The position numbers and the translations under genes were made by a program. From Eubacterium sp. An11 (GTDB lineage Bacteria; Bacillota; Clostridia; Lachnospirales; Lachnospiraceae), in assembly GCF_002161065.1 (NCBI RefSeq), contig NZ_NFLV01000006.1, positions 62,001 to 126,000 on the forward strand: 64,000 nucleotides of DNA. Direction: 5' to 3'. Under the pieces are notes generated by a model. The model made no database searches, was not told the origin of the DNA, and saw nothing but the letters and a program-made list of their open reading frames with translations. Within the stretch, counting starts at the first letter, position 1. The number at the start of each line of letters is the position of its first letter. This document shows positions 6,849 to 64,000 of the stretch, piece by piece.

Positions 6849-8567
6849 TTAGTAGGAAACCACGGTGGTTCCGACCGGCATGTTATCGTAGATGTACTTG
6901 GCATCTTCGTTATAACACCGGATACATCCATGGGATGCCGGCTTACCGATGGTCGGATTCTGTACGGCTCCGGAATTCCAGAGCGGACGGGTGTGGAAGG
7001 AATTCCTTCCCGCAAAATGAGTGACATACAACTCTTTTGTACTTGTGTAGAACCAGCCTGGTTCTTTGTAAGTAATCTTATATACTCCGATCGGAGAATG
7101 GTTGCTGGCAGTTCCTGTCGCACAGTCAAAGGTACGGATAATCTTCCAGTTTTTCTTGGAACCTTTATAAATAGTAACCTGCTGTGTATAATGACTGATC
7201 CAGATCAAATAGTCCGTTTTACTGCTGTAGCCCTTGCCGTTTACAAAAGCAAGCTTCACTTCCTTGGAATAATTCTTTGTGGTATAAATCTCTTTATTTC
7301 CGGAATAACCGATGGTCCGGACCGTATTGGCCAGAAGCTTATCATAATTCTTGCTCATATATTTGCTTGGCTTCACCGTGACAGTCTTGGAAGTCTGACT
7401 GCTCAGATACTTCTTGCCGTTTACTTTCGTATAGGCGCGGACCTGGATATTGTACTTGGTGTCAGGATCCAGCTTCTTGAGAGTGAACATTGTCGTCTTG
7501 GTGGTGCCGAGCTTTTTATATGTAAGATCGCTCTTTTTCTTATAATAAATCTGATAGCCCGTAGCTTTCGCCGTCTTATCCCATTTGATGGAAAGCTTAT
7601 CTTTGGCGTTGAGGGTCAGCTTAACGCCAAGAACCTTTCCCGCAACCACCGGAATCTTAGCTTTTACTGTGGCAGAACGGGCGCCGGTGGTCTTTTTGCT
7701 TCCGGCCGCTCCCACGGCTTCTACCTTAAAATACCAGGTTCTTCCGGCGGTAAGTCCTTCCACCACCGCGGAAGTTCCCGTCACATTGGTGGCGGCCACT
7801 TTGTATCCGCTGCCGGACTTCCTGCTCTTGTAGATCGTGTAGTAAGAAGCGCCGCTGACCGCGTTCCAGGAAATCTTGGCCGCGTTGGCCTTCGGTTTCG
7901 CCTTCACTCCGGTAACCTTGCCCAGTGTTTTCAAATAATCATAACTTGTGGTCAGTCCCTGTCCATAGCAGACCGTTCCATTTATCTTTTTGTATCCAAT
8001 TAAATAGATGCTGTACTGTGCACTATCCAGAGCGGAAGAAGCAATGCTCCTGGAAGATGCCGTTCCGGAAGATACTTCCGTATCCACAGCAGTCGCTGCG
8101 GTATTGGAGTCCTTGGCCACCTGCACTCTGTACCCCTGATAGATGCTTCCGTTGGAAACTCTCCAGGATACCTGAAGCGCATCGTTGGAATTCTTCACCG
8201 CATTCAATCCCTGTACCGCTTCCCCTGTGTAGTAATCCACAGTGAGGGAATCTCCATTATTCCCTTCCAAATCCAGCGTATATCTAGTTCCATTTGCATA
8301 GGCGCCGCCCAGACCGATGTCGAGATTGTTGACCTTAGCTCCCACGGTTCCGGCTGCGACTTGTTTCCCCGTAGCCGTATTCGTCACCGTATACGTATAC
8401 CCGCTGTCCGAGAAATCCTCAAACTTGAGAACAAGACTCTTCTTCTCTGTGCTCACATAAGCAATCTTATCCACAGAGACGCTTGCTGCGGAAGCCGTAT
8501 TTCCCATGAACAAAAAGCACAGGCACACCACGGCTATAGCTGCGGCAAAACTCATAAACTTTTTCAC
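6849..8567 (-). CDS. Secreted L,D-transpeptidase (YkuD) with fibronectin type III repeats
   Basis: The 572-residue precursor has a signal peptide (about residues 1-28, ending TASA-A). Next come about three fibronectin type III-like domains (roughly 110-400; repeated GKVTGVK/YYTIYKS/WYFKVEA-type strands). At the C-terminus is a YkuD catalytic domain with the signature SHGCIR, nucleophile Cys548, preceded by HTRPLW. YkuD enzymes form 3-3 peptidoglycan cross-links or attach proteins to the wall; the FnIII repeats probably extend it through the wall. Translation appears to start at the GTG at 8567, ten bases after GAGGAGG; the ATG at 8555 would remove basic signal-peptide residues. It lies alone, convergent with the YfhO gene. 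Confidence 0.92.
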   Translation of the reverse strand: MKKFMSFAAAIAVVCLCFLFMGNTASAASVSVDKIAYVSTEKKSLVLKFEDFSDSGYTYTVTNTATGKQVAAGTVGAKVNNLDIGLGGAYANGTRYTLDLEGNNGDSLTVDYYTGEAVQGLNAVKNSNDALQVSWRVSNGSIYQGYRVQVAKDSNTAATAVDTEVSSGTASSRSIASSALDSAQYSIYLIGYKKINGTVCYGQGLTTSYDYLKTLGKVTGVKAKPKANAAKISWNAVSGASYYTIYKSRKSGSGYKVAATNVTGTSAVVEGLTAGRTWYFKVEAVGAAGSKKTTGARSATVKAKIPVVAGKVLGVKLTLNAKDKLSIKWDKTAKATGYQIYYKKKSDLTYKKLGTTKTTMFTLKKLDPDTKYNIQVRAYTKVNGKKYLSSQTSKTVTVKPSKYMSKNYDKLLANTVRTIGYSGNKEIYTTKNYSKEVKLAFVNGKGYSSKTDYLIWISHYTQQVTIYKGSKKNWKIIRTFDCATGTASNHSPIGVYKITYKEPGWFYTSTKELYVTHFAGRNSFHTRPLWNSGAVQNPTIGKPASHGCIRCYNEDAKYIYDNMPVGTTVVSY

Positions 8568-8913: not shown

Positions 8914-10044
8914 ATGATTAATTTTAATATTCCGCCTTGTGCGCCGAAAGCGCCTGAATATATGGCTCAGGCAATCAAGAATCACAAAATCAGCGGAGAC
9001 GGTGCTTATACCGCCCTCTGCAGCCGATGGATCGAGGAACACACCGGCACAGCGAAGGCTCTCCTGACCACCTCCTGCACCCATGCGACGGAGATGGCCG
9101 CGCTTCTGGCAGATATTAAGCCGGGAGATGAAGTGATCATGCCTTCCTATACTTTTGTATCCACCGCCGACGCCTTTGTTCTGCGCGGTGCCACCGCCGT
9201 TTTTGTGGATATCCGCCCGGATACCATGAATATCGACGAGACCAAAATCGAGGACGCCATCACCGAAAAGACAAGAGCTATCGTTCCAGTCCATTACGCC
9301 GGCGTCGCCTGCGAGATGGATACCATCATGGATATCGCCGCCCGCCACAATCTCCTTGTCATCGAGGACGCTGCGCAGGGGGTCATGGCAAGTTACAAGG
9401 GCAAAGCTTTGGGCAGCATCGGCGACTATGGCTGTTTCAGTTTCCATGAGACCAAAAATTACAGTATGGGAGAGGGCGGATGCCTCCTCATCAAAGATAA
9501 CGAGAATATTGAGCGGGCAGAGATCATCCGTGAGAAGGGTACCAACCGAAGCAAGTTCTTCCGCGGCCAGATCGATAAATATACCTGGGTGGAAGCCGGC
9601 TCCTCTTATCTGCCAAGCGACTTAAACGCCGCTTATCTCTGGGCGCAGCTGGAGATCGCCGATGAGATTTATGAAGACCGCATGGCCACATGGAACCTTT
9701 ACCATGAGACACTGGCTCCTCTGCAGGAAGCCGGGTATATTGAACTTCCGTTTATTCCGGAAGGCTGTGTGCACAATGCGCACATGTACTATATCAAGGC
9801 AAAGGACCTCGCCGAGCGCTCTGCCTTAATCCGATTCTTAAAGGAAAATGATATTTCAACCGTTTTCCATTACATTCCTCTTCACGACGCTCCTGCCGGC
9901 AAAAAATACGGCCGCTTCCACGGAGAGGACAGATACACGACCAGTGAGAGCGAACGTCTGGTACGTCTGCCGCTCTACTATGGTCTTGAGAGAGAAAAAG
10001 TATTGACAGTCTGCCGCAAGATCAAAGAATTCTACGACAAATAG
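8914..10044 (+). CDS. rffA: dTDP-4-amino-4,6-dideoxygalactose transaminase
   Basis: This PLP enzyme of the DegT/DnrJ/EryC1/StrS family transfers an amino group to dTDP-4-keto-6-deoxyglucose, giving an amino sugar used in surface glycans. The 376-residue product matches E. coli RffA/WecE along its length from memory of that protein, with segments such as PGDEVIMPSYTFVSTA, VPVHYAGVACEMDTIM and IREKGTNRS. The PLP lysine is Lys181 in FHETKNYS. The ATG at 8914 follows AGAAGG at 8901; an in-frame TTG at 8908 is less likely. It leads an operon with a glycosyltransferase and an ATP-grasp gene. No rml (dTDP-sugar) genes are in the window, so the substrate must be made elsewhere. Confidence 0.92.
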   Translation: MINFNIPPCAPKAPEYMAQAIKNHKISGDGAYTALCSRWIEEHTGTAKALLTTSCTHATEMAALLADIKPGDEVIMPSYTFVSTADAFVLRGATAVFVDIRPDTMNIDETKIEDAITEKTRAIVPVHYAGVACEMDTIMDIAARHNLLVIEDAAQGVMASYKGKALGSIGDYGCFSFHETKNYSMGEGGCLLIKDNENIERAEIIREKGTNRSKFFRGQIDKYTWVEAGSSYLPSDLNAAYLWAQLEIADEIYEDRMATWNLYHETLAPLQEAGYIELPFIPEGCVHNAHMYYIKAKDLAERSALIRFLKENDISTVFHYIPLHDAPAGKKYGRFHGEDRYTTSESERLVRLPLYYGLEREKVLTVCRKIKEFYDK

Positions 10045-15732: not shown

Positions 15733-16335
15733 TTATTTAACAACAATCTTGATTGTTCTTGTACCTTTCTTGAAGTTATCTGTACCTTTAATCTTAACGC
15801 GGATCTTGTAAGTACCTTTCTTGATACCCTTCATCAGAGTAACAACACCTTTTTTGCTTACTTTAACCCATTTTTTAGCTTTTTTGCCCTTAACTTTGTA
15901 AGAAACAACTTTTCCATCGGATTTAACTTTCAGTTTAATCTTTTTGGATTTATTTTTTAATTTTTTAGCCTTGAAGCCTTTTGCAAGTTTCTTTTCTGTT
16001 TTCTTGTTCAGTTTATAAACCGGTTTGCTTGCTTTTGTGATCGTATAAGCGATTGTAGCATCACCCTGATATAAACCGATACCTTTAATCTTTAAATTAT
16101 AGCTTCCTGCTGCTGTAGGCTGCTGTCCGTCGATGACAAAGTCTGTACCTTCAACCAGTTCTTTACCGTTGACAGTGATTTTCAGGACTTCATCTTTGCC
16201 TGTGTACTGGGAAGAAATGTTATAACTTCCGCTGATTGTAGTTTTCACAGGTGAAGATGTTGCAGCAAATGCTGTGGATGGAACCATCAGAGCTACAGTC
16301 ATAGCAACAGCCATAGCTTTTTTCATGTTAAGCAT
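15733..16335 (-). CDS. Small secreted lysine-rich protein
   Basis: The 200-residue product has a signal peptide (about 1-25, ending AFA-A). Residues 28-100 form an Ig-like or MBG-like strand-rich segment (ISGSYNISSQYTGKDEVLKI to YQGDATIAYTITKA), the type seen in clostridial surface proteins. The C-terminal 100 residues are about one-third lysine (KKLKNKSKKIKLKVKSDGK and similar), which would make it bind acidic wall polymers. The ATG is preceded by AGGAGG at nine bases. It has its own terminator and probably its own promoter in the AT-rich 16336-16567. The function is unknown; a wall- or matrix-associated structural protein is a guess based on charge and location. Confidence 0.8.
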   Translation of the reverse strand: MLNMKKAMAVAMTVALMVPSTAFAATSSPVKTTISGSYNISSQYTGKDEVLKITVNGKELVEGTDFVIDGQQPTAAGSYNLKIKGIGLYQGDATIAYTITKASKPVYKLNKKTEKKLAKGFKAKKLKNKSKKIKLKVKSDGKVVSYKVKGKKAKKWVKVSKKGVVTLMKGIKKGTYKIRVKIKGTDNFKKGTRTIKIVVK

Positions 16336-50864: not shown

Positions 50865-50984
50865 CCTTCCCCACGACGGTTCGTCATGCTCTCCTTCGCC
50901 GGCGGTCCGTCATACCCTCTTCCGGCGGCGGTTCTTTATGCTTTTTTCGCGTCAGTTCATTACGCCCTCTTCCGGCGGCGGTTC
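50865..50984. repeat. Decayed direct repeats at the 3' end of an ABC transporter gene
   Basis: The same 20-base segment occurs at 50915-50934 and 50965-50984, a period of 50 bases, with a decayed third copy near 50888-50910. The copy at 50965-50984 codes for the last residues of the ABC protein (WNRRRKRA), so the spacer carries duplicated gene-end sequence. Confidence 0.6.
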
Positions 50985-52717
50985 CAGCCCCGGCTGTGTT
51001 CCCGGACGGTAACAAAGCTTTCGTACACGCCGTGTTGTCTCATCAACTTCTCGTGAGTTCCACATTCTGTGGTCCTTCCGTCGGCGATGACCAGAATCTC
51101 GTCGGCATGGCGGATGGTGTTCAGCCGGTGGGCGATGACCAGAAGAGTTTTGCCCCGGCAGAGCTCGCTGATAGCCTCCTGGATGTAACTTTCATTATCA
51201 GCGTCCACGCTGGCTGTGGCCTCGTCAAGGATAATGATCGGGGCGTCCTTCAGAATACACCGGGCGATGGAGATGCGCTGCTGCTCCCCGCCGGAGAGAG
51301 TGGCGCCGCCCTCGCCGATCACCGTGTCAAAGCCATCCGGCAGTTTCATGATAAAGTCATAGCAGCGCGCTCTTTTCGCCGCCTCGATGACTTCCTCCCT
51401 GGATGCGTCCGGCCGTCCCATACTGATATTATTGTAAACGGTATCCTGGAACAGGTATACCCTCTGAAACACCATGGATATGTGATCCATCAGATCATGG
51501 AGGGGCACATCCCGGATGTCTTTTTCCCTCACGAGCACCTGCCCGGACTTTACATCCCAGAAACGGGTCAGAAGACTGGCGATGGTGGATTTGCCGCCGC
51601 CGGACGGCCCCACCAATGCTGTCATGGTATTCCGTTTCACAGAAAAAGAAATGTCATGGAGAACTTCTTTCTCCCCGTAAGCAAAATGTACATGCCTAAA
51701 CTCAATCTCCGGAACGCCGGCGACGGCTTCCGGTATCCTCTGACTGCCCTCATCGGGCAGTTCCGCTTCCCCAAACACTTCCTCCATCCGGTCCAGACAG
51801 CTGTTCATGACCGTCAGCCTGGTACTCTGGCTGTAGAGTGCTTTCACTGGCCCGAACAGGTCAAAAACAAACAGCATGATTCCAATGAGATAGGTTACGT
51901 CCATCTGTCCCATTGCGGTCAGATACAAAGCGAGAACCATGATCGCCACGGCGCCCAGCCCATAGATGAGATTCAGCCGCCGCTGCCACGGCGCATGGTT
52001 CTTTTCAAAATCCATGTTGGTCCGGTAGCTTTTTCTGAAATTAGCCGTCAGCTCTTTTGATTTCTCCCCCAGCAGATTATAGCTTTTGGCGATGCCGATG
52101 CCTTCCACGAAATCCAGCACCGCTTCTGTGAGATTTTCGCTCTGCTCCTGACGGATATTGGAATCTTCCATGCTCTCCCGGTTCATTTTTTTCGCCACCA
52201 GCAAGATGAGCAGTATGATCAGAATGCCGGCAAGCCCCAGCCATACATTGAAAAGCAGCAGAAACACGATCATGATGGCTTCCGCAAAAATGTAACTCAT
52301 CATATCGGCCAGCGCCGTCATGCTGTTTTCCTCAATAAATACCATGTCGGTGGAAAGAACGGAGCTGATCTTACCAATATTTCCTTCCGTGAAATACCCC
52401 ATAGGCATCTTCCTGAGATGCCGTCCCAGCTCCATACGTTTATCGGCCAGTACCATAAAACCAGCGGCAGATTGCAGCCGGTCCGCCGCATGCTGGAAGA
52501 TCACCTGCAGCAAAACGCAGACAATCATGCCGGCTCCGGCTGCCAGACACATTTCCGCCGTCATAGTTCCCCGGTAGAACGCCGACAACACCAGAAAAGC
52601 AATGCCGATGGGCGCCTTTGCCAGAACGGATTTCAGGAAGGAAAATACAAACGCCGCCTGAATCCGTCCCTTATATTGTCCGGACACATGTAAAATTCTT
52701 CTTATTAATGTAATCAT
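50960..52717 (-). CDS. ABC transporter, fused permease and ATPase (cassette 2, second subunit)
   Basis: The 585-residue protein is a half-transporter with six N-terminal helices and an ATPase domain with Walker A GPSGGGKST, LSGGEQQRISIARCIL, IIILDEATASVDADNE (intact catalytic Glu) and VIAHRL. It follows its partner gene by 53 bases; AGAGGAAAA precedes the ATG. With the partner it should form a heterodimer. The pairing and sequence style resemble the type IV exporters that include the siderophore importer YbtPQ, but drug or peptide export is equally possible. The C-terminus ends in arginine-rich residues coded by a repeated DNA segment. Confidence 0.9.
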   Translation of the reverse strand: MITLIRRILHVSGQYKGRIQAAFVFSFLKSVLAKAPIGIAFLVLSAFYRGTMTAEMCLAAGAGMIVCVLLQVIFQHAADRLQSAAGFMVLADKRMELGRHLRKMPMGYFTEGNIGKISSVLSTDMVFIEENSMTALADMMSYIFAEAIMIVFLLLFNVWLGLAGILIILLILLVAKKMNRESMEDSNIRQEQSENLTEAVLDFVEGIGIAKSYNLLGEKSKELTANFRKSYRTNMDFEKNHAPWQRRLNLIYGLGAVAIMVLALYLTAMGQMDVTYLIGIMLFVFDLFGPVKALYSQSTRLTVMNSCLDRMEEVFGEAELPDEGSQRIPEAVAGVPEIEFRHVHFAYGEKEVLHDISFSVKRNTMTALVGPSGGGKSTIASLLTRFWDVKSGQVLVREKDIRDVPLHDLMDHISMVFQRVYLFQDTVYNNISMGRPDASREEVIEAAKRARCYDFIMKLPDGFDTVIGEGGATLSGGEQQRISIARCILKDAPIIILDEATASVDADNESYIQEAISELCRGKTLLVIAHRLNTIRHADEILVIADGRTTECGTHEKLMRQHGVYESFVTVREHSRGWNRRRKRA

Positions 52718-52770
52718 ATTTTCCTCTTTCCTGACGCATTTGCTGCGTCAATAATGGTAGATTTGGAAGT

Positions 52771-54540
52771 TCACTTCCAAACTTCGCTTTCCTCCCCTGC
52801 TCCTTTTTCTCTGGCGCTGACTTTCCAGGCCGCGCTTTCCCCTGCTGCCTTCCACAGACTCTGGTAGGCCGGACACCGCTCCAGGAGCTGTTCATGGGTG
52901 CCTGCATCCGCCACTCTGCCTTTTGACAGCACACAGATCTGATCCGCATTTATAATAGAAAGAAGCCGGTGGGCGATGACGATCACTGTTTTTCCGCGGA
53001 TGACCTCGGCGATAGCCTCGTTCATTTTCTCCTCATTCTCGGGATCCATGAATGCGGTCGCCTCGTCAAGGATAATGATCGGCGCGTCTTTTAAAATCGC
53101 CCGGGCCAGGGAAATGCGCTGCCGCTCTCCGCCGGAAAGCTGCCGGCCGCCGTCTCCCGCCATGGTGTGAATCCCTTTCTCCAGACGCCCGAGAAATTCC
53201 ATACACTGGGCCTTTTCGGCCGCCTCCATCACTTCCTCATCGGAGGCGTCAAGCCTGCCCAGACGGATATTTTCAAATAAGCTCATATTAAACAGAAACT
53301 GTTCCTGGGATACGTAAGAGATCTGATCATTCAGGGCTTCCAGACTCATTTCCCGGATGTCCTGCCCGCCAATTCTCACTGCACCGCTGTCCACGTCATA
53401 ATAATGGACCAGCAGCTTTGCCAGAGTGGATTTCCCGCTGCCCGATTCCCCCACCAGAGCCGTCAGGCTGCCCTCCGGCACCTTCAGAGAAATGCCGTGG
53501 AGCACCTCTTCTTCCTTATAAGTAAACCGTACATTTTCAAAAGAAATGTCATATCCGGCGCCGGCAAACGGCTCCTCTGACTGCTGCAGCGGCGGTGTAT
53601 TCATCATGGTTTCCAGGCTCTCAATCTTATAATTGATCTGCGGCAGCGTGGACAGAAAACTCAAAGAACGCAGCAGAGGCGCGCCCACCGCGAAAGACAT
53701 GCACAGCACCAGGACCAGATCCGGCAGAGTGGAATACCCCCGCAGCACCAGATAACTGCCCACAGGCAGAACGAACAGCGACACGCAGGGCAGGATACTG
53801 TTGTAAAGGGCCATCCATGGCCAGCATACTTTGTACCAGTCCAGAGTAAAGTCCCGGTAATTTTTCACATCGGTCTCAAACCTCTGATAGGACTCCCCGT
53901 CCCGGTTAAACACCTTTACTACTTCCATGCCGTTAATGTATTCCACAATGGTATTGTTCATCTTTCTCGCCGCACCGTAATAAGCATCCATCTTGCTGGT
54001 TCCTGCACGATACATGAACATCATGGCCACAAACCCCAGGGGCAGAGAGCACAAAGACAACAGCGCCAGTTTCCAGTCCACAAAAAACATGGCGATAAAT
54101 ACAAAAACCGGAACAGCGATGTTGGCCACACCCTCGGGCAGAGCATGGGCCAGCAGCAGTTCTATGGATTCAATATCATCAATGAACATTTTTTTCAGTG
54201 AACCGACGCCTTTTTCCTGAATGGCGCCCAGAGGCTGTTTTTCCAGCTTTCCCTGCAGAGAAATCCGCAGGTTCATCAGTGTGTGATAGGCGGACTCGTG
54301 GGACAGATCCAGTCCCTTTACATACAAAAGTGCATACAGCACCATGCAAAGAGCAATGGCAGCCACCCGAAAACTGCCTGCCGCCACCGTCAGACTGCCG
54401 CCGGACAGCAGTGGCGCGATGATCTGAAATACAAACAGATAGGGAAGTACGCTCACGGCGACCCCCGCCAGCATCACCACCATGGCCTGCCACGTTTTTG
54501 CGCGGTATTCCCCTGCGTATTCCATCACTTTTTTGAACAA
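52771..54540 (-). CDS. ABC transporter, fused permease and ATPase (cassette 2, first subunit)
   Basis: The 589-residue half-transporter has six helices beginning AMVVMLAGVAVSVLPYLF and an ATPase domain with GESGSGKST, LSGGERQRISLARAIL, IIILDEATAFMDPENE and VIAHRL. All catalytic residues are present, unlike in heterodimers that have one degenerate site. Translation appears to start at a TTG (54540) seven bases after GGGGGAG. It lies 38 bases downstream of the TetR gene and is presumably controlled by it. The substrate is unknown. Confidence 0.9.
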   Translation of the reverse strand: MFKKVMEYAGEYRAKTWQAMVVMLAGVAVSVLPYLFVFQIIAPLLSGGSLTVAAGSFRVAAIALCMVLYALLYVKGLDLSHESAYHTLMNLRISLQGKLEKQPLGAIQEKGVGSLKKMFIDDIESIELLLAHALPEGVANIAVPVFVFIAMFFVDWKLALLSLCSLPLGFVAMMFMYRAGTSKMDAYYGAARKMNNTIVEYINGMEVVKVFNRDGESYQRFETDVKNYRDFTLDWYKVCWPWMALYNSILPCVSLFVLPVGSYLVLRGYSTLPDLVLVLCMSFAVGAPLLRSLSFLSTLPQINYKIESLETMMNTPPLQQSEEPFAGAGYDISFENVRFTYKEEEVLHGISLKVPEGSLTALVGESGSGKSTLAKLLVHYYDVDSGAVRIGGQDIREMSLEALNDQISYVSQEQFLFNMSLFENIRLGRLDASDEEVMEAAEKAQCMEFLGRLEKGIHTMAGDGGRQLSGGERQRISLARAILKDAPIIILDEATAFMDPENEEKMNEAIAEVIRGKTVIVIAHRLLSIINADQICVLSKGRVADAGTHEQLLERCPAYQSLWKAAGESAAWKVSAREKGAGEESEVWK

Positions 54541-54578
54541 ATTTTCTCCCCCTTCCGGCCTGGATAAGTTTTTAACAC

Positions 54579-55214
54579 TTATCCATTGCTATTTTCCGGC
54601 AAAGGAAAACCGAACACCCGGTACCAGTCAAAGAGCCGGCATACCATCAGGCAGTGTTCTTCTATCTGTTCCCAGGTATAATCATGAATGAAAGGTTCAT
54701 AAATAGTCTCCCAGAATGCAGAAAGCAGGATGTGCATTTCCTGACGGGACATTTTTACCGTGGTAAGCCCCCTCCGGAACGCCTCCTCATAATACCCATA
54801 CGTGGCTCCCGTCATCTCTTCCACCCAGTCATGCTGGAAATGCGAATAACAGGTACCCTCCGCGCATTTCAGCAAAAGTACGAATCCGTCGTGACGCTCA
54901 TAAAGATACTCAAACCACCACATCATATAACTCACATCCATATCCCACGCCTTTATCAGGGCTTCATCGGAGAGTTTCTCCGGACCGCTTCCCTTCTTTT
55001 CCTGAAGAATCACCTGGAGATCCGCCACCGTATCTGCCACCACAGCGCAGAACAGATCCTCTTTTCCTTTATAGCGTTTGTAGAGCGCTCCCGTGGTCAC
55101 CCGGGCCTTCTCGCAGATGGTTTTCAGAGATGCTTTTTCAAAACCTAACTCTAAAAATTCTTCTTTCGCACTGACCAGAATACGCGGATCAATACTGCGG
55201 TCTGCCTTTGCCAT
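54579..55214 (-). CDS. TetR-family regulator of ABC cassette 2
   Basis: The 211-residue protein has an N-terminal TetR helix-turn-helix (about residues 8-52, SLKTICEKARVTTGALYKRY) and a ligand-binding domain rich in aromatic residues (MMWWFEYLYERHDGFV). The ATG at 55214 has AGGAGG eight bases upstream; the upstream frame extension crosses the operator and is rejected. It heads a TetR-ABC-ABC operon. A 34-base near-palindrome 27 bases upstream is the likely self-regulatory operator. The inducer is probably a substrate of the transporter (inference). Confidence 0.9.
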   Translation of the reverse strand: MAKADRSIDPRILVSAKEEFLELGFEKASLKTICEKARVTTGALYKRYKGKEDLFCAVVADTVADLQVILQEKKGSGPEKLSDEALIKAWDMDVSYMMWWFEYLYERHDGFVLLLKCAEGTCYSHFQHDWVEEMTGATYGYYEEAFRRGLTTVKMSRQEMHILLSAFWETIYEPFIHDYTWEQIEEHCLMVCRLFDWYRVFGFPLPENSNG

Positions 55215-55240
55215 AATTTCTTCCTCCTGTGCACATTTAT

Positions 55241-55274
55241 TTGATAATTTGATTATCGATAATCTGATTATCAA
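55241..55274. promoter_or_regulatory. Near-perfect 34-base palindrome, TetR operator
   Basis: Two 17-base half-sites (55241-55257 and 55258-55274) differ from perfect dyad symmetry at only two base pairs. The core GATTATCGATAATC (55251-55264) is itself perfectly symmetric. Position just upstream of the regulator's ribosome site suits repression. Confidence 0.7.
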
Positions 55275-55407
55275 TATAGCATTGGAAACGCTGCCAGTCA
55301 ACGAGTGGACGGCAGCGCTATTGGTGAAAAATATTCAATAAGTGATTCTTAATAAACTTTATCATTGAGGTGCGTCCCCGGGCAGCTTCCGGCGGACACT
55401 GCATCTC

Positions 55408-57144
55408 TTATTTTTGCAGTTTCCAGCCGATGGCTTCCTGACGTCCCGTGACAAAATCGGCGTAAAGGCCTTTTTGTTTTATCAGCTCCTCATGCCGGCC
55501 TTTCTGTACCAGCTCTCCTTTATCAATGGCGAGGATCTGGTCGGCATTGCGCACCGTTTTCAGTCGGTGGGCGATCATGATGATGGTTTTGTCCCGGGTC
55601 AGTGCCTCGATGGCTTTCTGCAGCCGGTCCTCATTCTCGGGATCTATGTTTGCCGTGGCCTCGTCAAGGATGACGATGGGTGCGTCCTTGATCATGGCGC
55701 GGGCAATGCTGATCCTCTGTTTTTCTCCTCCGGACAGAGAGGCGCCGCCTTCACCGATCACAGTCTGGTAGCCATCCGGAAGCGCCTCAATAAATGTATC
55801 GCAGCAGGCCTGCCGGGCCGCCGCCACAACTTCCTCGTGAGTGGCGTCAGGTTTTCCGAATTTGATATTGTTCTCGATGGTATCAGCAAAAAGATACACA
55901 TTCTGAAATACCATACTGATCTGATCCATGAGCGATTCCAGGGTATATTCCCTCACATCTTTTCCGTCAATGCGGATGCTTCCCTGATTTACGTCCCAGA
56001 AACGGGCAATGAGATTACACATCGTCGTTTTGCCGGAGCCGCTGGGACCGACGATGGCCGTAGTGGTCTTATCCGGCAGATGCACGGTGATGCCGCGGAG
56101 AATCTCTTTATTTCCATAAGAAAAATGTACATTTTCCAACATGATATCATGACTCTCCGGGTGAATTGCACTGCCGCCCTCATCCATCTGCGGTATGACG
56201 TCAGTCTGATTGGCGTGGTCAATGGAACTTCCCACCAGCCGGAGCATGGCCATGCCGCTTCCGGCCGACTCAATCTGGCTGAATACCAGAAATGAAATGA
56301 TGATAGACATCAGAGTATTGGCAAGGCTCATGGTGCCATGGAGATAAAAGTATACCGCCGCCAGCATGATCAGTACCCCGAATGCCTGCAGGACAAATCC
56401 CTGAGCCATGGTATACGAGGTAAAAAGCCTCTCCATGGCAAAATTGTATCTGCGGTTTTCTTCCAGGGCGTCTCTCACTTTTTTATCTCCTTTTCCTGTC
56501 AGATTAAAAGATTTGATAACGCTCATCCCCTGAATCTGTTCCAGCACAGCGCTGACCATCCTGGCTTCGGAGGCCTGCCTTTTCGGCGCGATCTTTGCGG
56601 ACTTTCTTTCCATGGAAGAGGTGATCAACAGATAGAGGATTGTTCCTGCCACTGCCAGCAGACCGACGCGCCAGTCAAAGATAAGCACCAGCTCAAGAAA
56701 CACCAGCGCATTCATCAATCCGCCCAGCATGTTAACCAGCACCACTGGCCCGGTATTTTCCAATTCTTCCAGCACCGTGGTGACCACGCCGGTAATCTCT
56801 CCCAGATTACTGCTGTTAAAATATCCCATGGGTACAGTTTTTAATTTATTGCCGATGGCCACCCGCTTATTGGCCACCATAAAATATCCGGCGTGGGTCT
56901 GCTGCAGCTGGGAAAAATAGTTGGTCACCGTCTTCCCCGCAATACTGATGACCAGCAGAAGAAGCGCTGTCCAGGCTGCGCTATATCCCTGCTCATGTTC
57001 TGTCAGAGCCAGCACCACGTAGTAGATGGCCCCCACCTGAAACATATGGAACACCGCATAGAGAAATCCCATCCCAATGGATGCATTTACATTTTTTCGT
57101 TCCTCCCCGGCAAAGTCCCAGAGCTTTTTTAAAATATTCAGCAT
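55408..57144 (-). CDS. ABC transporter, fused permease and ATPase (cassette 1, second subunit)
   Basis: The 578-residue half-transporter has six helices and an ATPase domain with GPSGSGKTT, LSGGEKQRISIARAMI, IVILDEATANIDPENE and MIAHRL. Its start overlaps the end of the preceding ABC gene by seven bases, indicating coupled translation and a heterodimer. The membrane part (GYSAAWTALLLLVISIAGK, MGYFNSSNLGEITGVVTT) is related to the second subunit of cassette 2, which supports duplication of the whole cassette. The substrate is unknown. Confidence 0.9.
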   Translation of the reverse strand: MLNILKKLWDFAGEERKNVNASIGMGFLYAVFHMFQVGAIYYVVLALTEHEQGYSAAWTALLLLVISIAGKTVTNYFSQLQQTHAGYFMVANKRVAIGNKLKTVPMGYFNSSNLGEITGVVTTVLEELENTGPVVLVNMLGGLMNALVFLELVLIFDWRVGLLAVAGTILYLLITSSMERKSAKIAPKRQASEARMVSAVLEQIQGMSVIKSFNLTGKGDKKVRDALEENRRYNFAMERLFTSYTMAQGFVLQAFGVLIMLAAVYFYLHGTMSLANTLMSIIISFLVFSQIESAGSGMAMLRLVGSSIDHANQTDVIPQMDEGGSAIHPESHDIMLENVHFSYGNKEILRGITVHLPDKTTTAIVGPSGSGKTTMCNLIARFWDVNQGSIRIDGKDVREYTLESLMDQISMVFQNVYLFADTIENNIKFGKPDATHEEVVAAARQACCDTFIEALPDGYQTVIGEGGASLSGGEKQRISIARAMIKDAPIVILDEATANIDPENEDRLQKAIEALTRDKTIIMIAHRLKTVRNADQILAIDKGELVQKGRHEELIKQKGLYADFVTGRQEAIGWKLQK

Positions 57145-58949
57145 GCTTTTCCACCGTCCTTTCCTTCGCCGCAGGCTGCGTTTTCGTCCGTCGCCGGGCG
57201 GATGTCTGCTTCCGTCCGGTTATCTTTTGCTCCCAGATGCGCCTGCCACATGGAGCGGTACAAAGCGCAGCCGGAAAGAAGCTCCTCATGGGTGCCGCCC
57301 GCCTCAATTCTCCCGTCTTTCACCACGATGATCTGGTCGGCGTCGGTGATGGTGGACAGCCGGTGGGCAATGACAATGACGGTCTTTCCCTGCACAAGCT
57401 CTGCCACTGCTCTCTGGATGAGAGCCTCATTCTCGGGATCGATGTATGCGGTCGCCTCATCAAAAATCACTATCGGCGCGTCTTTTAAGAGAGCTCTGGC
57501 AATAGCAATCCGCTGCCGCTCACCGCCGGACAGATGAGCGCCGCCCTCACCGACTCTGGTCTCATAGCCATTTTCCAGCTGGCGGATGAAACCGTCGCAG
57601 CCAGCTCTTTTGGCCACTTCCTCCACCTTCCTGTCGGTGGCCCGCACATTTCCCATACGGATATTTTCCCGTATGGTATCATCGAAGAGATAATTATCCT
57701 GAGACACAAAGGCAATCTGGTCATAAAGTTCTGTGAGGGGAATCTCCTGCAGATCATGGTCCCCCATAGTGATCCTGCCTTTCTTCACATCCCAGAATCC
57801 TGCGATCAGTCTCGTGATGGTGGATTTGCCGCCGCCGGACGGCCCCACAAAGGCTGTCATGGTTCCTTCCGGAATCCGCAGGCTCACATCATGAAGAATC
57901 TCTTTGTCCTCGTGATAGCCGAAGGACACATGATCCACCACGATATTCCGGTTGTCAAACCGTACATTTTCTGTGCCGTGCTCCTGCTCCTCTCCGTCAA
58001 GAATCTCATCCACCGAACCGACGATGGTTCCTACCCTGGCCAGACTGTCCACAAAATTCATCGCCGCCAGCAGTGGTCCCGCAATTCCAAGAGAGAGCAC
58101 CACCGTGGTAATAAATGTCTCCACCGGCAGACTCCCGCTTTGATACAACAACCAGCCCACCGGAAGAACGGTAATCATAGTGGCCGGCGCCACCGCCTTG
58201 GACAGGGATACCGGAAACTGACAGCTCTTCATCCAATTATAAAAATATGCGGCGTTTGCCATGATTTTATCTGTAAACTTCGCATAAGAACTGTTTCCCT
58301 GGTTGAACGCCTTAATCACCTCAATGCCGCCGATGTACTCCACAATGGCAGAATTCATGGCCTGGGTGGTCCGCACGGAACCCTCATACTGTTTCCCGTA
58401 GCCGGCCATGACCATCATCATAAATGCCATGCCCACCGGAATGGATACCAGAGACAGCAGTGCCATGCGCCAGTCCAGGATAAACAGATAGATAAAAATG
58501 CACACCGGCCCGAAAATATTCGACATCATCTCCGGCAGCAGATGGGCCAGCGGCGTTTCCATACTCTCCACCTGGTCCACGATAATCTGTTTGATTTTGC
58601 CGCTGGACGTATCCAGGATCGTCCCCAAAGGCATTTTCGGCAATTTTTCCAGCACTCGCTCCCGGATATTTTTCAGGATGGAGAACGTTGCGTGATGCGA
58701 CATGGACAACGCCAGATTATAGAGCAGCGTGCGCATCAGATATCCCGCCAGAGCAATGACACACCATCTGACATAAAAATTCCAGTCCCGGTTTCCGCCC
58801 AGCAGGGCGATGATCATCTGCGCCGCCGCAAAATAGGGCAGCATCCCCAAAAGCACTCCGGCCGCCGCCGAGATCATTGCCCGTACCAAACCTCCGTGCT
58901 CGCTTTTTCCCAGCTCCCACAACCGGAGCATCGGACTTTTGCTTTGCAT
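57138..58949 (-). CDS. ABC transporter, fused permease and ATPase (cassette 1, first subunit)
   Basis: The 603-residue half-transporter has six helices (starting MISAAAGVLLGMLPYFAAAQ) and an ATPase domain with GPSGGGKST, LSGGERQRIAIARALL, IVIFDEATAYIDPENE and VIAHRL, followed by a charged 25-residue tail. GGGAGG stands seven bases before the ATG. It shares with the cassette 2 first subunit the segment GVGSL/DTSSGKIKQ-type loop and IDDIESIE/VDQVESME helix, as expected of paralogues. It is separated from the TetR gene by 126 bases with possible operator half-sites near 58993-59003. Confidence 0.9.
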   Translation of the reverse strand: MQSKSPMLRLWELGKSEHGGLVRAMISAAAGVLLGMLPYFAAAQMIIALLGGNRDWNFYVRWCVIALAGYLMRTLLYNLALSMSHHATFSILKNIRERVLEKLPKMPLGTILDTSSGKIKQIIVDQVESMETPLAHLLPEMMSNIFGPVCIFIYLFILDWRMALLSLVSIPVGMAFMMMVMAGYGKQYEGSVRTTQAMNSAIVEYIGGIEVIKAFNQGNSSYAKFTDKIMANAAYFYNWMKSCQFPVSLSKAVAPATMITVLPVGWLLYQSGSLPVETFITTVVLSLGIAGPLLAAMNFVDSLARVGTIVGSVDEILDGEEQEHGTENVRFDNRNIVVDHVSFGYHEDKEILHDVSLRIPEGTMTAFVGPSGGGKSTITRLIAGFWDVKKGRITMGDHDLQEIPLTELYDQIAFVSQDNYLFDDTIRENIRMGNVRATDRKVEEVAKRAGCDGFIRQLENGYETRVGEGGAHLSGGERQRIAIARALLKDAPIVIFDEATAYIDPENEALIQRAVAELVQGKTVIVIAHRLSTITDADQIIVVKDGRIEAGGTHEELLSGCALYRSMWQAHLGAKDNRTEADIRPATDENAACGEGKDGGKAC

Positions 58950-59075
58950 ACATATACCTCCCTTTTATTAGTTTTTCCTTTCTTTGATTAGTTCAAGCTA
59001 ACCAAAAGGATTTATTTTAAGACTGCCGGTTTTGGTCCGGCAGCCCCATTGACGCACAATTCAATATAAAACCTC

Positions 59076-59708
59076 TCACCCTTCATATTTTTCCGGCGAA
59101 AAAATGGTATCGAACCCCGCCATATGATATCGCTCCAGCATCTTCACATAGCGTTTGGCGTCCTCCTTTTTCATCCGATGGCGCACAATCTCAAATATGC
59201 TGTCAAAATAGGCATTGGTCACAATATGCAGAAATTCCTCCGTCACCTGTCCGGATCTAATACTCTCACATCCGATAACCTCCATGTACTTATAAGTGTA
59301 TTCCACCTCAATGCGGGTCAGATCATCCACAAAATTCTGGAATTCCGTTCCGTAGGAAGCGTCCAGCACCAGCCGGAAAGCGTCAAAATTCTCATAAATA
59401 TAATCAATAATATTCTCCATCCCGTCTGCAGTGTACTTTCCCATGGTTTCCACCTGCTTCTGCTCATCAAACTGATGAAAGGTCTCCTGAATATCCATGA
59501 ACATCTTCATCATGCCGTCCACCGCCGGCTCCACGATAGCCCGGAACAGCCCCTGCTTATCTTTAAACCGCACATAGATGGAATTGGTGCTGGTACCTGC
59601 CGCCGCAGCGATCACCCGCAGGGAAGCATCCTTGTACCCGTTTTTTAAAAATTCTTCTTTGGCGCATTGAAGAATCCTCTCCGAAACGCCCTCGATCTGT
59701 TTTGCCAT
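59076..59708 (-). CDS. TetR-family regulator of ABC cassette 1
   Basis: The 210-residue protein has a TetR helix-turn-helix (about residues 6-50, SLRVIAAAAGTSTNSIYVRF) and a ligand domain with YENFDAFRLVLDASYGTEF. AGGAGA precedes the ATG. A perfect palindrome 65 bases upstream is a likely operator. It is followed by the two ABC genes on the same strand. This regulator and that of cassette 2 are only distantly alike, so the regulators have diverged faster than the transporters. Confidence 0.9.
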   Translation of the reverse strand: MAKQIEGVSERILQCAKEEFLKNGYKDASLRVIAAAAGTSTNSIYVRFKDKQGLFRAIVEPAVDGMMKMFMDIQETFHQFDEQKQVETMGKYTADGMENIIDYIYENFDAFRLVLDASYGTEFQNFVDDLTRIEVEYTYKYMEVIGCESIRSGQVTEEFLHIVTNAYFDSIFEIVRHRMKKEDAKRYVKMLERYHMAGFDTIFSPEKYEG

Positions 59709-60350: not shown

Positions 60351-60860
60351 TCAATGAAATGGAAGCTGTTCATCTATCTCATCCGATACTTTCATGAACC
60401 CATCATTGTAAGTAGGAAATGATTGCTGCTGATATTGTTGTTCTTCCCTTTGCTGGTTTTGGCTATGTTGGTACCCTCCCGAACTTTGGCCTCCATATTG
60501 TTCATCACCGTATTGTCTTCCGGAATTTAGTTCACTTGCGCTTTTACTCTCCGCGAACTCCTGATCTTCAACCACGACATCCGTTGTATATACCTTCCTC
60601 CCATCTCTATTTGTATACGAACCAGTCTGTATTCTCCCGGTAATTACAATTTTTGTTCCCTGTCGGAAATATTTTCCCGCAAACTCGGCCGTCTTCCCAA
60701 ATGCCACGCATGAAACAAAATCTGCATCCGGTTCCCCCTCCCGTTTGAAACGTCTCGGCACAGCAAGAGTGTATCTCGCAACAGCCATAGGATTCTCCCC
60801 GGCAGTATATCTCATCTCAATATCTCTGGTCAATCTTCCCATCAAAATTACTTTATTCAT
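60351..60860 (-). CDS. ssb: Single-stranded DNA-binding protein, phage-type
   Basis: Binds single-stranded DNA in replication and repair. The 169-residue protein has the OB fold (MNKVILMGRLTRDIEMRYTA, VARYTLAVPRRFKREGE, DFVSCVAFGKTAEFAGKYF, GSYTNRDGRKVYTTDVVVED). A Gln/Ser/Gly-rich tail ends in DEIDEQLPFH, a functional partner-binding tip. The ATG at 60860 follows AGGAGGG. The small phage-like neighbours and the lack of rpsF/rpsR beside it show this is not the housekeeping copy but one of a prophage or similar element. Confidence 0.92.
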   Translation of the reverse strand: MNKVILMGRLTRDIEMRYTAGENPMAVARYTLAVPRRFKREGEPDADFVSCVAFGKTAEFAGKYFRQGTKIVITGRIQTGSYTNRDGRKVYTTDVVVEDQEFAESKSASELNSGRQYGDEQYGGQSSGGYQHSQNQQREEQQYQQQSFPTYNDGFMKVSDEIDEQLPFH

Positions 60861-60870
60861 CGCCACCCTC

Positions 60871-61047
60871 CTACTCTTTGTATTTCCTTCCACCGCACCA
60901 GCAATAATCTTTTGTCGGTACCCACTCTTCTGTTACCCATTTAGGCCCCTCTTTGCTTTCCATACATGCATGACTTCCATCTCCGCAATATATTGCATTG
61001 CTGCAATTCTCACATGTTTTCTTTTCTCTTTTCTTTTTCTTTGACAC
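60871..61047 (-). CDS. Small Cys-rich zinc-binding protein, phage-type
   Basis: A 58-residue protein starting at GTG (61047) seven bases after AAAGGAG. After a lysine-rich start it has CENCSNAIYCGDGSHAC and CWCGGRKY, two Cys clusters that probably bind zinc. It ends ten bases before the ssb start and begins within the end of the preceding gene, a compact packing typical of phage genes. A longer frame to 61110 without a ribosome site is rejected. The function is unknown. Confidence 0.75.
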   Translation of the reverse strand: MSKKKKREKKTCENCSNAIYCGDGSHACMESKEGPKWVTEEWVPTKDYCWCGGRKYKE

Positions 61048-62086: not shown

Positions 62087-62758
62087 TTATTCCATATTTT
62101 CTATAAATATCAATCCCCCCCCCGCAGGATTTTTCCTTGAGGTAACGTATGCGGTTTTCCTGGTGTTGAGCCGAATTTTCACTATATCTCCACAATTTAT
62201 GCATTTATAATTAAAATTATCTTCGTCCATATTTGTGTAGTATTTAAAATCTTCCCCGCATTCACAGTGGACGTACATCGGCTTTAAATCTTCCAGCGGA
62301 ACCTTATTGCCGCATTCGCACCTGTGCTCCGTTATATCTGATTTTGTGCAAAATCCTTTTATTTCCCCACAAGCAGGGCATTTTATGTACAAAAATCCTT
62401 TGTATCCATCTACGCTTTGCTCGTAATCACTCCGCGCTTCAGAGCCTCTTGAAATTATATCTCTCCACCCTTCGCCAAACAGACTGTCATTCCGGCTTTT
62501 TTTCGGTACTCTATGGGCGTCGCTATTCGCCATTTCAGACGGTTTCTGTGTTTCCTTAATCTTTTCCATTTCTTTCTCTGCAACAACACCCCATGCTGCC
62601 GCAACCGCGTCCTGAAGCGTCTCGGGTTTGCTTTCTTCCAGCATATTTTCTCTTCCCAGTTCGGAATATTTATATGCCATCTGGATAAGAGCAGTAACCT
62701 TGTTTACATCAAGATCAAATCGGTTATTTCCGTATGGCGTTACAATATCAATCTTCAT
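62087..62758 (-). CDS. Phage-type protein with multiple zinc-binding Cys pairs
   Basis: The 223-residue protein starts at an ATG (62758) with GAGGAG seven bases upstream. The N-terminus (MKIDIVTPYGNNRFDLDVNK) is followed by a helical part and a C-terminal region with KCPACGEIKGFC, HRCECGNKVPL, VHCECGEDFKYY and YKCINCGDIVKIRL, probably two or more zinc ribbons. A run of nine Cs on the plus strand (62115-62123) lies in the last ten codons, so the C-terminus may vary by slippage. The function is unknown. Confidence 0.72.
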   Translation of the reverse strand: MKIDIVTPYGNNRFDLDVNKVTALIQMAYKYSELGRENMLEESKPETLQDAVAAAWGVVAEKEMEKIKETQKPSEMANSDAHRVPKKSRNDSLFGEGWRDIISRGSEARSDYEQSVDGYKGFLYIKCPACGEIKGFCTKSDITEHRCECGNKVPLEDLKPMYVHCECGEDFKYYTNMDEDNFNYKCINCGDIVKIRLNTRKTAYVTSRKNPAGGGLIFIENME

Positions 62759-62921
62759 TCTCGTTCTCCTCGCTTTCTCCTGCGTCCGGTCCTTCTCCAT
62801 ACCGTTCTGCACATGCCCTACTGTCGGGAAACAAAAACATGCACGCGCCTCCAGTTATTTCACATCCATATCCGTGCTGCTCATTGGTATGATAAGCAGC
62901 CTTACATTTTCCTGCCGCCAT
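62748..62921 (-). CDS. Small conserved phage-type protein
   Basis: A 57-residue frame from ATG 62921 (AAGGAG eight bases upstream) to TGA at 62748. It reads MAAGKCKAAYHTNEQHGYGC, then EITGGACMFLFPDSRACAER and YGEGPDAGE. Four Cys in two spaced pairs suggest metal binding. I recall closely similar short proteins in many Lachnospiraceae prophages. It overlaps the start of the next gene by 11 bases and completes the gap in this dense gene row. Confidence 0.75.
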   Translation of the reverse strand: MAAGKCKAAYHTNEQHGYGCEITGGACMFLFPDSRACAERYGEGPDAGESEENENED

Positions 62922-63530: not shown

Positions 63531-63583
63531 ATCCATCACCTCTTTCTGGCGACTTTCCAGCCGCCAGTTCAGATATACAGTTA

Positions 63584-64000
63584 TCAGTCATTCAGTTTTC
63601 TGTAATAAGCGGAGCGGAACCCGATGTAGGAGATGGAATACGCACGAGAGTAGCCCAAGCTCACGCAGAACACACCCGCATTGGACGTGTAGTTGCAGCT
63701 GCCGCCACAAAGCGGCACATATTCTCCGTCCGTGCTGTCAACATACAAGTAAGCATTTTCTTCACCATCCCACAACCCCAGCTCTCCCAGCTGTTCGGAT
63801 GCACAAGCTATACTGACATTTCTCCATCTGACACCAGCATATCCCTGTGAGAAATCATCATCCGTTGTAAAGGTGATTTCTCCATCTGCCACATTGACAT
63901 GTATAGGTTTCCCTCTATCATCTACTACATTCCGCCAATCATCGCCCTCTGCTGTCAGATCAATGTCCAACGCTGCATCATTATTATTCGCCGCCTGCAA
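63584..64000 (-). CDS. Variable-region-bearing protein, likely DGR target (5' end outside window)
   Basis: The visible 138 residues are the C-terminal part of a longer protein; the frame is open at the right edge. The end, from GGSCNYTSNAGVFCV through SRAYS to IGFRSAYYRKLND, has the C-type-lectin-like/FGE pattern of diversity-generating retroelement targets (GG.W.N.S.AGVF...L...RS.....IGFR.A). At most positions where such proteins have template Asn codons, the codons here end in C or T with changed first two bases. No reverse transcriptase or template repeat was seen in the window. It would be a receptor- or ligand-binding protein of a prophage or host surface. Confidence 0.75.
   Translation of the reverse strand: MQAANNNDAALDIDLTAEGDDWRNVVDDRGKPIHVNVADGEITFTTDDDFSQGYAGVRWRNVSIACASEQLGELGLWDGEENAYLYVDSTDGEYVPLCGGSCNYTSNAGVFCVSLGYSRAYSISYIGFRSAYYRKLND

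Follow-up and report, generated by a model that had tools for sequence, protein, structure and literature searches.

The window, the whole stretch of 64,000 nucleotides analysed here (contig C61:62001-126000 of a 3.9-Mb draft genome), ends within a gene, T2, that we read as a remote second target of a diversity-generating retroelement (DGR) in the same prophage, with a short tandem array and a hairpin behind its variable repeat as the putative mark of the target site. From sequence comparison we put the probability of this reading as a whole at about 0.8. In DGR biology the RNA of a template repeat (TR) is copied with errors at adenines, and the resulting cDNA replaces a variable repeat (VR).

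A variable repeat at the window edge

Window 63584..64000, minus strand: C-terminal 138 residues of T2; the gene extends past the window edge to C61:126738
Window 63608..63719, minus strand: VR2, variable repeat of T2; 112 bases aligned to TR

The open frame 63584-64000 (minus) ends in ...GEYVPLCGGSCNYTSNAGVFCVSLGYSRAYSISYIGFRSAYYRKLND, and its translation contains the residues and codons from which a sequence-only reading of the window had proposed a DGR target. Complete T2 has 384 residues (C61:125584-126738, minus) and matches PHROG_2889 (E 1.6e-94); comparison with Pfam FGE-sulfatase (PF03781) gave no match at E 0.01. When VR2 was searched as DNA against its own genome, two further good copies were found, both on the same strand of C61, at C61:142421-142532 (88%, TR) and C61:143081-143206 (79%). 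The first is the second copy with mismatches at A for which the sequence-only reading had suggested a search: over the 112 aligned positions VR2 differs from TR at 13, 12 of them at template A, and since A occupies only 25 of the 112 template positions this exceeds chance (binomial p 1.6e-7). The variable region had been placed at 63605-63715, close but not identical to the TR-matching stretch. Ten variable codons had been listed as derived from AAC/AAT, and nine of them do face such codons; the first Cys (TGC) instead faces TGG, and this G>C change is the single non-A mismatch of VR2. The changes also include TAC>TGC (second Cys) and ACG>GCG. The VR of the proximal target T1 (VR1) differs from TR at 13 positions, all at template A. 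Because the mismatches of VR1 and, with that one exception, of VR2 fall on adenines of one TR, we read the repeat in the window as a remote second VR, and by this comparison VR2 is almost certainly the variable repeat of a prophage DGR target.

The DGR cassette and its prophage

C61:143067-144119, minus strand: T1, proximal target, 350 residues
C61:142555-143022, minus strand: Avd; Pfam bAvd, 65.1 bits over a cut-off of 40; PHROG_3206
About C61:142421-142532, minus strand: TR, template repeat
C61:141068-142210, minus strand: RT, 380 residues; Pfam RVT_1, 80.5 bits over a cut-off of 29.6
C61:138054-138821, minus strand: endolysin-like gene, below the curated cut-off
Window 60351..60893, minus strand: SSB gene downstream of T2; Pfam SSB, E 1.4e-28; PHROG_44
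C61:179927-181654, plus strand: 575-codon ORF at the other prophage end

RT, Avd, TR and T1 share contig and strand with T2, at a distance of 14-18 kb. Template and reverse transcriptase thus both lie beyond position 64000, one of the placements that the sequence-only reading had inferred (beyond 64000 or elsewhere), and the outcome that it had named as refuting, no copy with A-only mismatches and no DGR-type reverse transcriptase, did not arise. The distances, 14.3 kb from RT to T2 and 16.7 kb from TR to VR2, exceed the 5 kb taken as the limit for a remote target. RT matches PHROG_1423 (E 3.4e-127) and its sequence shows YMDD and an LLSQ stretch; an SQ stretch is typical of DGR reverse transcriptases. 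Among NCBIfam models RT matched none for DGR reverse transcriptases, the best hit being a group II RT below cut-off, and the NCBIfam Avd model gave 60.5 bits with Avd, below its cut-off of 80. T1 scored 22.8 bits against Pfam FGE-sulfatase, just under the cut-off of 23.3. Because every defining feature put to a sequence test was found (RT, adenine-biased TR, VR at the 3' end of a gene with a GRNA-loop hairpin, and Avd), the element can safely be classed as a DGR. The best matches of RT indicate that the host is probably a Lachnospiraceae-type Firmicute. A reverse transcriptase search of the genome gave six matches on four contigs, one of them at C61:141341-142003; the others, on C16, C17 and C35, are outside this DGR, and that at C35:2242-2940 has an internal TAG.

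Transcription on the minus strand would pass T1, Avd, TR, RT, the endolysin-like gene, others, T2, small genes and SSB in that order. The order around T2 had been described as unlike the usual target-Avd-TR-RT arrangement, which is explained by the prophage carrying the usual cassette at another place, while the target in the window is the remote second one. Between the endolysin-like gene and T2 are repressor-like, primase-family, HNH and ParB-like genes, among others. The 575-codon ORF, which we take to be a serine integrase from its appearance, matches the annotated integrase of Dulem virus 37 at 25%; no direct repeat of at least 10 bases that could mark the att site was found between the two stretches compared. 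Two other features of the window were recorded: a run of nine C at 62115-62123, read as nine G on the coding strand of ORF 62087-62812 and close to its 3' end, is a possible slippage site, and the four large minus-strand ORFs at 50960-59708 are, judging from their translations, presumably two pairs of ABC exporter halves with two TetR-like regulators.

An array and a hairpin shared by both target sites

Window 63570..63596, minus strand: NYTG array ACTG-4-ACTG-3-ACTG-4-TCTG, spanning the T2 stop codon, between VR2 and hairpin
Window 63546..63567, minus strand: hairpin, 9-bp stem (one G-T pair), loop GGAA; pairing read by eye

At both T1 and T2, four ACTG-like units with a start-to-start pitch of 8, 7 and 8 nt separate the VR from a GRNA-loop hairpin. 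In the 3.9-Mb genome this pattern occurs twice, behind VR1 and behind VR2, and the reversed control pattern does not occur. The hairpin starts about 40 nt past VR2, with the array in between, and its GGAA loop fits the published GRNA rule (PMC3240598; this and the other papers cited are represented by the portions of text available). Since T1 and T2 differ in sequence and neighbours, an element that they share beyond the VR/TR homology is informative.

The array across DGRs

A motif-independent set of DGRs was gathered by RT alone (80 IMG/VR loci, 80 GTDB loci and 24 named phage records) and is weighted to Firmicutes phages near our RT. TR/VR pairs were detected by adenine-biased self-similarity, which gave none at 22 of 166 RT loci. 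An array was scored as three or more N[C/T]TG units with a pitch of 7/8 nt, after repeat flanks and flanks shorter than 50 nt had been dropped. By this rule 103 of 138 distinct VR 3' flanks carry an array, compared with 0/138 TR 3' flanks, 0/138 VR 5' flanks and 0.7% of composition shuffles; these flank counts ignore kinship, and the array score changes 17 times on an RT tree of 129 rows. Relaxing the units raises the score to 118/138 VR 3' flanks, at the price of 12 and 2 control flanks that pass as well. The 35 flanks that fail the three-unit rule include 27 with Avd, and many show units with one base changed when inspected by eye. Among the 77 chains with at least four NCTG units, 41 showed the pitch 7,7,8; the first letters read AAAA in 31 chains and TTTT in 15. 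A strict search found the GRNA-loop hairpin in 82/121 flanks.

Inspection by eye added TTG-type units in Vibrio, Pseudoalteromonas and Aeromonas phages, and arrays behind the internal VRs of Mushu and nd4, within the reading frame. Haboob and Magia have degenerate arrays at most, and none was seen in BPP-1, Bise, crAss LMMB, a Hanky-type phage, Perkons, vir215, ANMV-1, a Helicobacter prophage, Arawn or Toutatis. One locus, L456 (phage nd12), has TCTT, TCTT, TCTT and TCTG at 7,7,8 pitch past its VR at 7707-7808 and is missed by the N[C/T]TG rule.

Arrays of at least three units were present in 102/129 flanks with Avd in the locus, versus 1/9 without (Fisher p 6.5e-5), and the one array-bearing flank without Avd, in nd4, has a weak Avd match (E 3e-6, filters off). 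Phylogeny does not support Avd as the reader of the array: Avd changes only twice on the 129-row RT tree, which leaves two independent pairs and no significance. The link with Avd is thus inseparable from ancestry, and we retain a reading role for it as a hypothesis. Reading of the array by base pairing with the DGR RNA was also considered and rejected, as no excess of complementary CAR chains was found around TR.

What the array may do

The position of the array relative to the stop codon varies: it lies after the stop in some targets, across it in our T2 and inside the frame elsewhere, where it is read as ELETEN-stop or KDWKLVTEIL. Neither 7 nor 8 is divisible by three, and with such a pitch and a varying place relative to the stop the array does not seem to be kept as peptide; by its layout it is kept as DNA or RNA. 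In one T2 subgroup (L138:5078-6112 and L272:8464-9498, both minus) array and hairpin are both in frame and are read as KDWKLVTEILGRA, which looks like a DNA signal being translated.

In the mechanism that we propose, one TR would supply cDNA to two sites, VR1 and VR2, about 17 kb apart. T2 would be made a legal target by the element that it shares with T1 just past the TR/VR homology, namely some four N[C/T]TG units with a pitch of 7-8 nt, followed by a GC-rich hairpin with a GRNA loop. The array is absent from TR flanks and present at remote T2 genes with different downstream genes, which points to the target site. From this placement we somewhat favour a function in docking: the array would be a sequence-specific site, next to where the VR ends on its 3' side, to which the homing complex (Avd-RT-RNA, or else a host factor) docks. 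Two observations weigh against docking. BPP-1, the tested prototype, lacks the array, and its 4-bp spacer can be changed without loss (PMC3240598); moreover, a quarter of the surveyed flanks (35/138) miss the three-unit rule, and the flanks are phylogenetically non-independent.

An array that acts on the transcript instead, be it in RNA processing, in termination or in translating the gene that follows, or that simply hitchhikes on copied target 3' ends, would agree with its location at gene ends beside a hairpin. The flanks of T1 and T2 are also more alike within than between phages (nine phages; p below 1/20000, 20,000 permutations), a likeness that shared recognition and copying between sites would give equally. 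Neither transcript function nor hitchhiking readily accounts for the bare TR 3' flanks, for arrays at remote targets with unrelated next genes, for those that follow the internal VRs of Mushu and nd4 in frame, or for the T2 genes that enclose both array and hairpin in their frame. We consider such a non-homing element unlikely, and docking remains the function that we prefer. In L428 (VRs at 9148-9256 and 16081-16189) an unusual third unit, GCTG, is common to both flanks and the hairpins are near-identical, which gives the impression that one gene received its target site from the other by copying.

Finding targets by the motif alone

The pattern ACTGN3ACTGN3ACTGN4ACTG, with 16 fixed bases, matched 108 IMG/VR stretches. 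Under a fixed rule, a GFRSA-type VR end directly upstream, 53 of the 82 distinct flanks were positive and two or three more were accepted by eye, the rest being unlike DGR sites. The same scan of 397 family genomes matched three (reversed control, 0), two by the rule and the third by eye. An RT lies within 2.5 kb downstream at 32 of the 55 rule-positive sites and was not found at 23, where some flanks are too short; T2-like genes account for 18 of these 23 and for none of the 32. By protein comparison, 24 of the 26 T2-like ORFs had entered through the ACTG motif scans, among the matches listed, and three of these 24 repeat another ORF exactly. The other two are L027, an identical copy of our prophage found by T2 protein search, and L428, found by RT. 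Again among the matches listed, RT was present on 6 of the 22 contigs with motif-found T2 genes, contigs that may be fragments.

Remote targets in other phages

Proximal and remote VRs could both be read against TR in our prophage, G404, G170, Dulem virus 37 and Lagaffe, with a poorer fit for Dulem virus 37 (8/9 and 16/20 mismatches at A). In G306 the remote VR alone was compared (15/15 at A), the VR1 comparison being left out because it matched overlapping sequence. Remote VRs also fitted the TR of the same contig in G430 (16/16 at A), G434 (15/16), G432 (9/9), G438 (15/15) and G423 (16/16), and the proximal VR of G438 matches as well (10/10). This makes 11 phages with a remote VR tied to a TR in their own genome or on the same contig, six of them with both VRs read; two rows (L253 and L212) had been dropped as self-matches, and in the L216 phage no TR was found in the fetched 4 kb. 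One contig, IMGVR_UViG_3300037400_000491 (L170, L218, L243, L366), has three VR reads that fit one TR, at 10/10, 14/14 and 15/15 A positions. L170 and L218 have identical 3' flanks and may be one gene met at both ends of a circular contig instead of two separate genes; what differs between them would in that case reflect live variation of a single VR.

In a tree built from a hand-chosen subset with the last 45 residues, and so the VR, removed, 25 T1 rows and 23 T2 rows fall on opposite sides of one branch (support 100/99), a split recovered in 200/200 bootstrap trees. By this single-branch split T1 and T2 are old paralogues, retained side by side. T2/T1-like genes were found in 2/24 genus genomes and 11/397 family genomes, our own being in both counts. 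In G053 four T1/T2-like places occur on contigs C20, C88 and C10, perhaps from several DGR prophages or many targets.

Variation at remote variable repeats

The only near copy of our prophage that was found, one IMG/VR record, shows no difference over 58,188 bases. Nine pairs of T2 relatives differ by less than 12% outside the VR, three of them being identical throughout. L175/L229 differ at 21/135 positions in the VR versus 1/978 elsewhere, and L193/L200 at 17/135 versus 1/474. In the remaining four pairs the VR differences are 19/135, 23/135, 23/135 and 26/135, against 72/885, 75/792, 75/792 and 65/1014 outside, respectively. The VR therefore diverges faster in all six non-identical pairs, and in two of them nearly all change is confined to it.

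The lack of variation at our locus, together with the one non-A mismatch of VR2, is what would be seen if T2 were a fossil target here, one that was diversified in the past but is now out of reach, its array and hairpin being relics of duplication. We regard this as very improbable. The open frame, hairpin and array are all intact, and the exact own-type array has been retained at both VR1 and VR2 sites; in two pairs the relatives vary almost only in the VR, and T1 and T2 appear as old paralogues that were kept together.

The T2 product

An AlphaFold2 model of T2 (47 aligned rows) had a mean pLDDT of 83, mostly above 85 from residue 71 onward, with low confidence for about 70 N-terminal residues. 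The closest solved structure to the predicted fold is TaqVP, the Thermus aquaticus DGR variable protein (PDB 5vf4; Foldseek E 2e-30, TM 0.75, 27% identity); Mtd follows, then TvpA and CalU17 with weaker matches. The predicted fold of T2 is like that of TaqVP, T2 adding the low-confidence N-terminal residues, and T2 is predicted to be a TaqVP/Mtd-like protein with a C-type-lectin fold.

T2 could be located in 31 of 33 loci (not in G306 and L196). A co-directional SSB gene lies at most 4 kb downstream in 12 of these 31, and a ParB-like gene within about 2.5 kb in our prophage, G014, G404 and L110. From its position, T2 may be expressed with early genes. Queries for baseplate, sheath and tape-measure proteins matched within 10 kb of none of the 31 T2 genes, many of which are in short-flanked loci. 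The exceptions near T2 are L428, with T1 at 8 kb, and L232, with terminase and portal at 6-8 kb; T1 adjoins tail genes, and T2 does not in the loci seen.

These neighbourhoods bear on a proposal made for the Mtd-like targets of Lagaffe_CP (PMC11792537), according to which T2 would be a second receptor-binding tail protein. T1 and T2 belong to one PHROG family and share a conserved segment before the lectin-like part, and the predicted likeness to TaqVP and Mtd is in keeping with a tail function. Against it are the missing matches to baseplate, sheath and tape-measure genes near T2, an argument from position that is weakened by the many short flanks, and the SSB gene that follows T2 in 12 of 31 loci. 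We hold the chances to be even. A tail role for T2 would be compatible with its being a remote target and competes with a role away from the virion.

Discussion

The closest published layout is that of Faecalibacterium phage Lagaffe and Lagaffe_CP, whose DGR has two VRs and two Mtd-like targets (PMC5883640, PMC11792537). Lagaffe resembles our prophage in having proximal target, Avd, TR and RT in order and a remote homologous target near ERF/SSB genes; its array units are TCTG at about 8-nt pitch, unlike our ACTG type at 8,7,8. The available portions of the two papers do not mention an array. The DGR of Bordetella phage BPP-1 differs. Its hairpin, for which the role was established (PMC3240598), begins 4 nt after the VR with no array, whereas ours begins about 40 nt after VR2 with an array in between, and one target was found in the fetched BPP-1 region compared with two in our prophage. 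The BPP-1 layout of a close hairpin and a free spacer is thus not seen at VR2. GRNA-loop hairpins 4-34 bp from the VR had already been recorded by Guo 2011 (PMC3240598).

Targets distant from the RT cassette have been reported in Treponema denticola (PMC4891356) and in cyanobacteria (PMC7517822), and the cyanobacterial paper, in the portion available, suggests that cruciform or IMH features may activate them. Those remote targets are chromosomal, whereas the two targets described here belong to a single prophage, with T2 forming a separate shared lineage. Multiple and remote VRs accounted for roughly one seventh of the cases in an early data set (PMC3521204) and are also known, in the text available, from tentaclin phages; a global survey of 2021 states that its approach would miss remote targets (PMC8144416). 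Multiple and remote VRs and the GRNA-loop hairpin are accordingly known features. No description of the array was found in the open-access text searched. Nor did we find the old, separate T2 lineage described.

Tentatively, and with less confidence than we place in docking itself, we suggest a wider view. The sequence that separates VR from hairpin would, in the majority of DGRs with Avd, not be a spacer. The homing complex would read it as a tandem NYTG docking array, perhaps with each subunit of the Avd ring taking one unit, and the array would define what is diversifiable genome-wide; the exception of BPP-1 would have hidden it. In this way phages may direct a single template to T2 as a second binding protein, one whose gene lies close to replication genes and which need not be carried on the virion. 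The T2 lineage prompts one to ask what a lectin-fold protein subject to hypermutation would do in that position. A VR end followed by an NYTG array and a GRNA hairpin would be a portable DNA mark that makes target choice by DGRs, above all of remote targets, testable; it offers a route to remote targets from sequence alone and points to a rule by which reporter genes might be designed as DGR targets.
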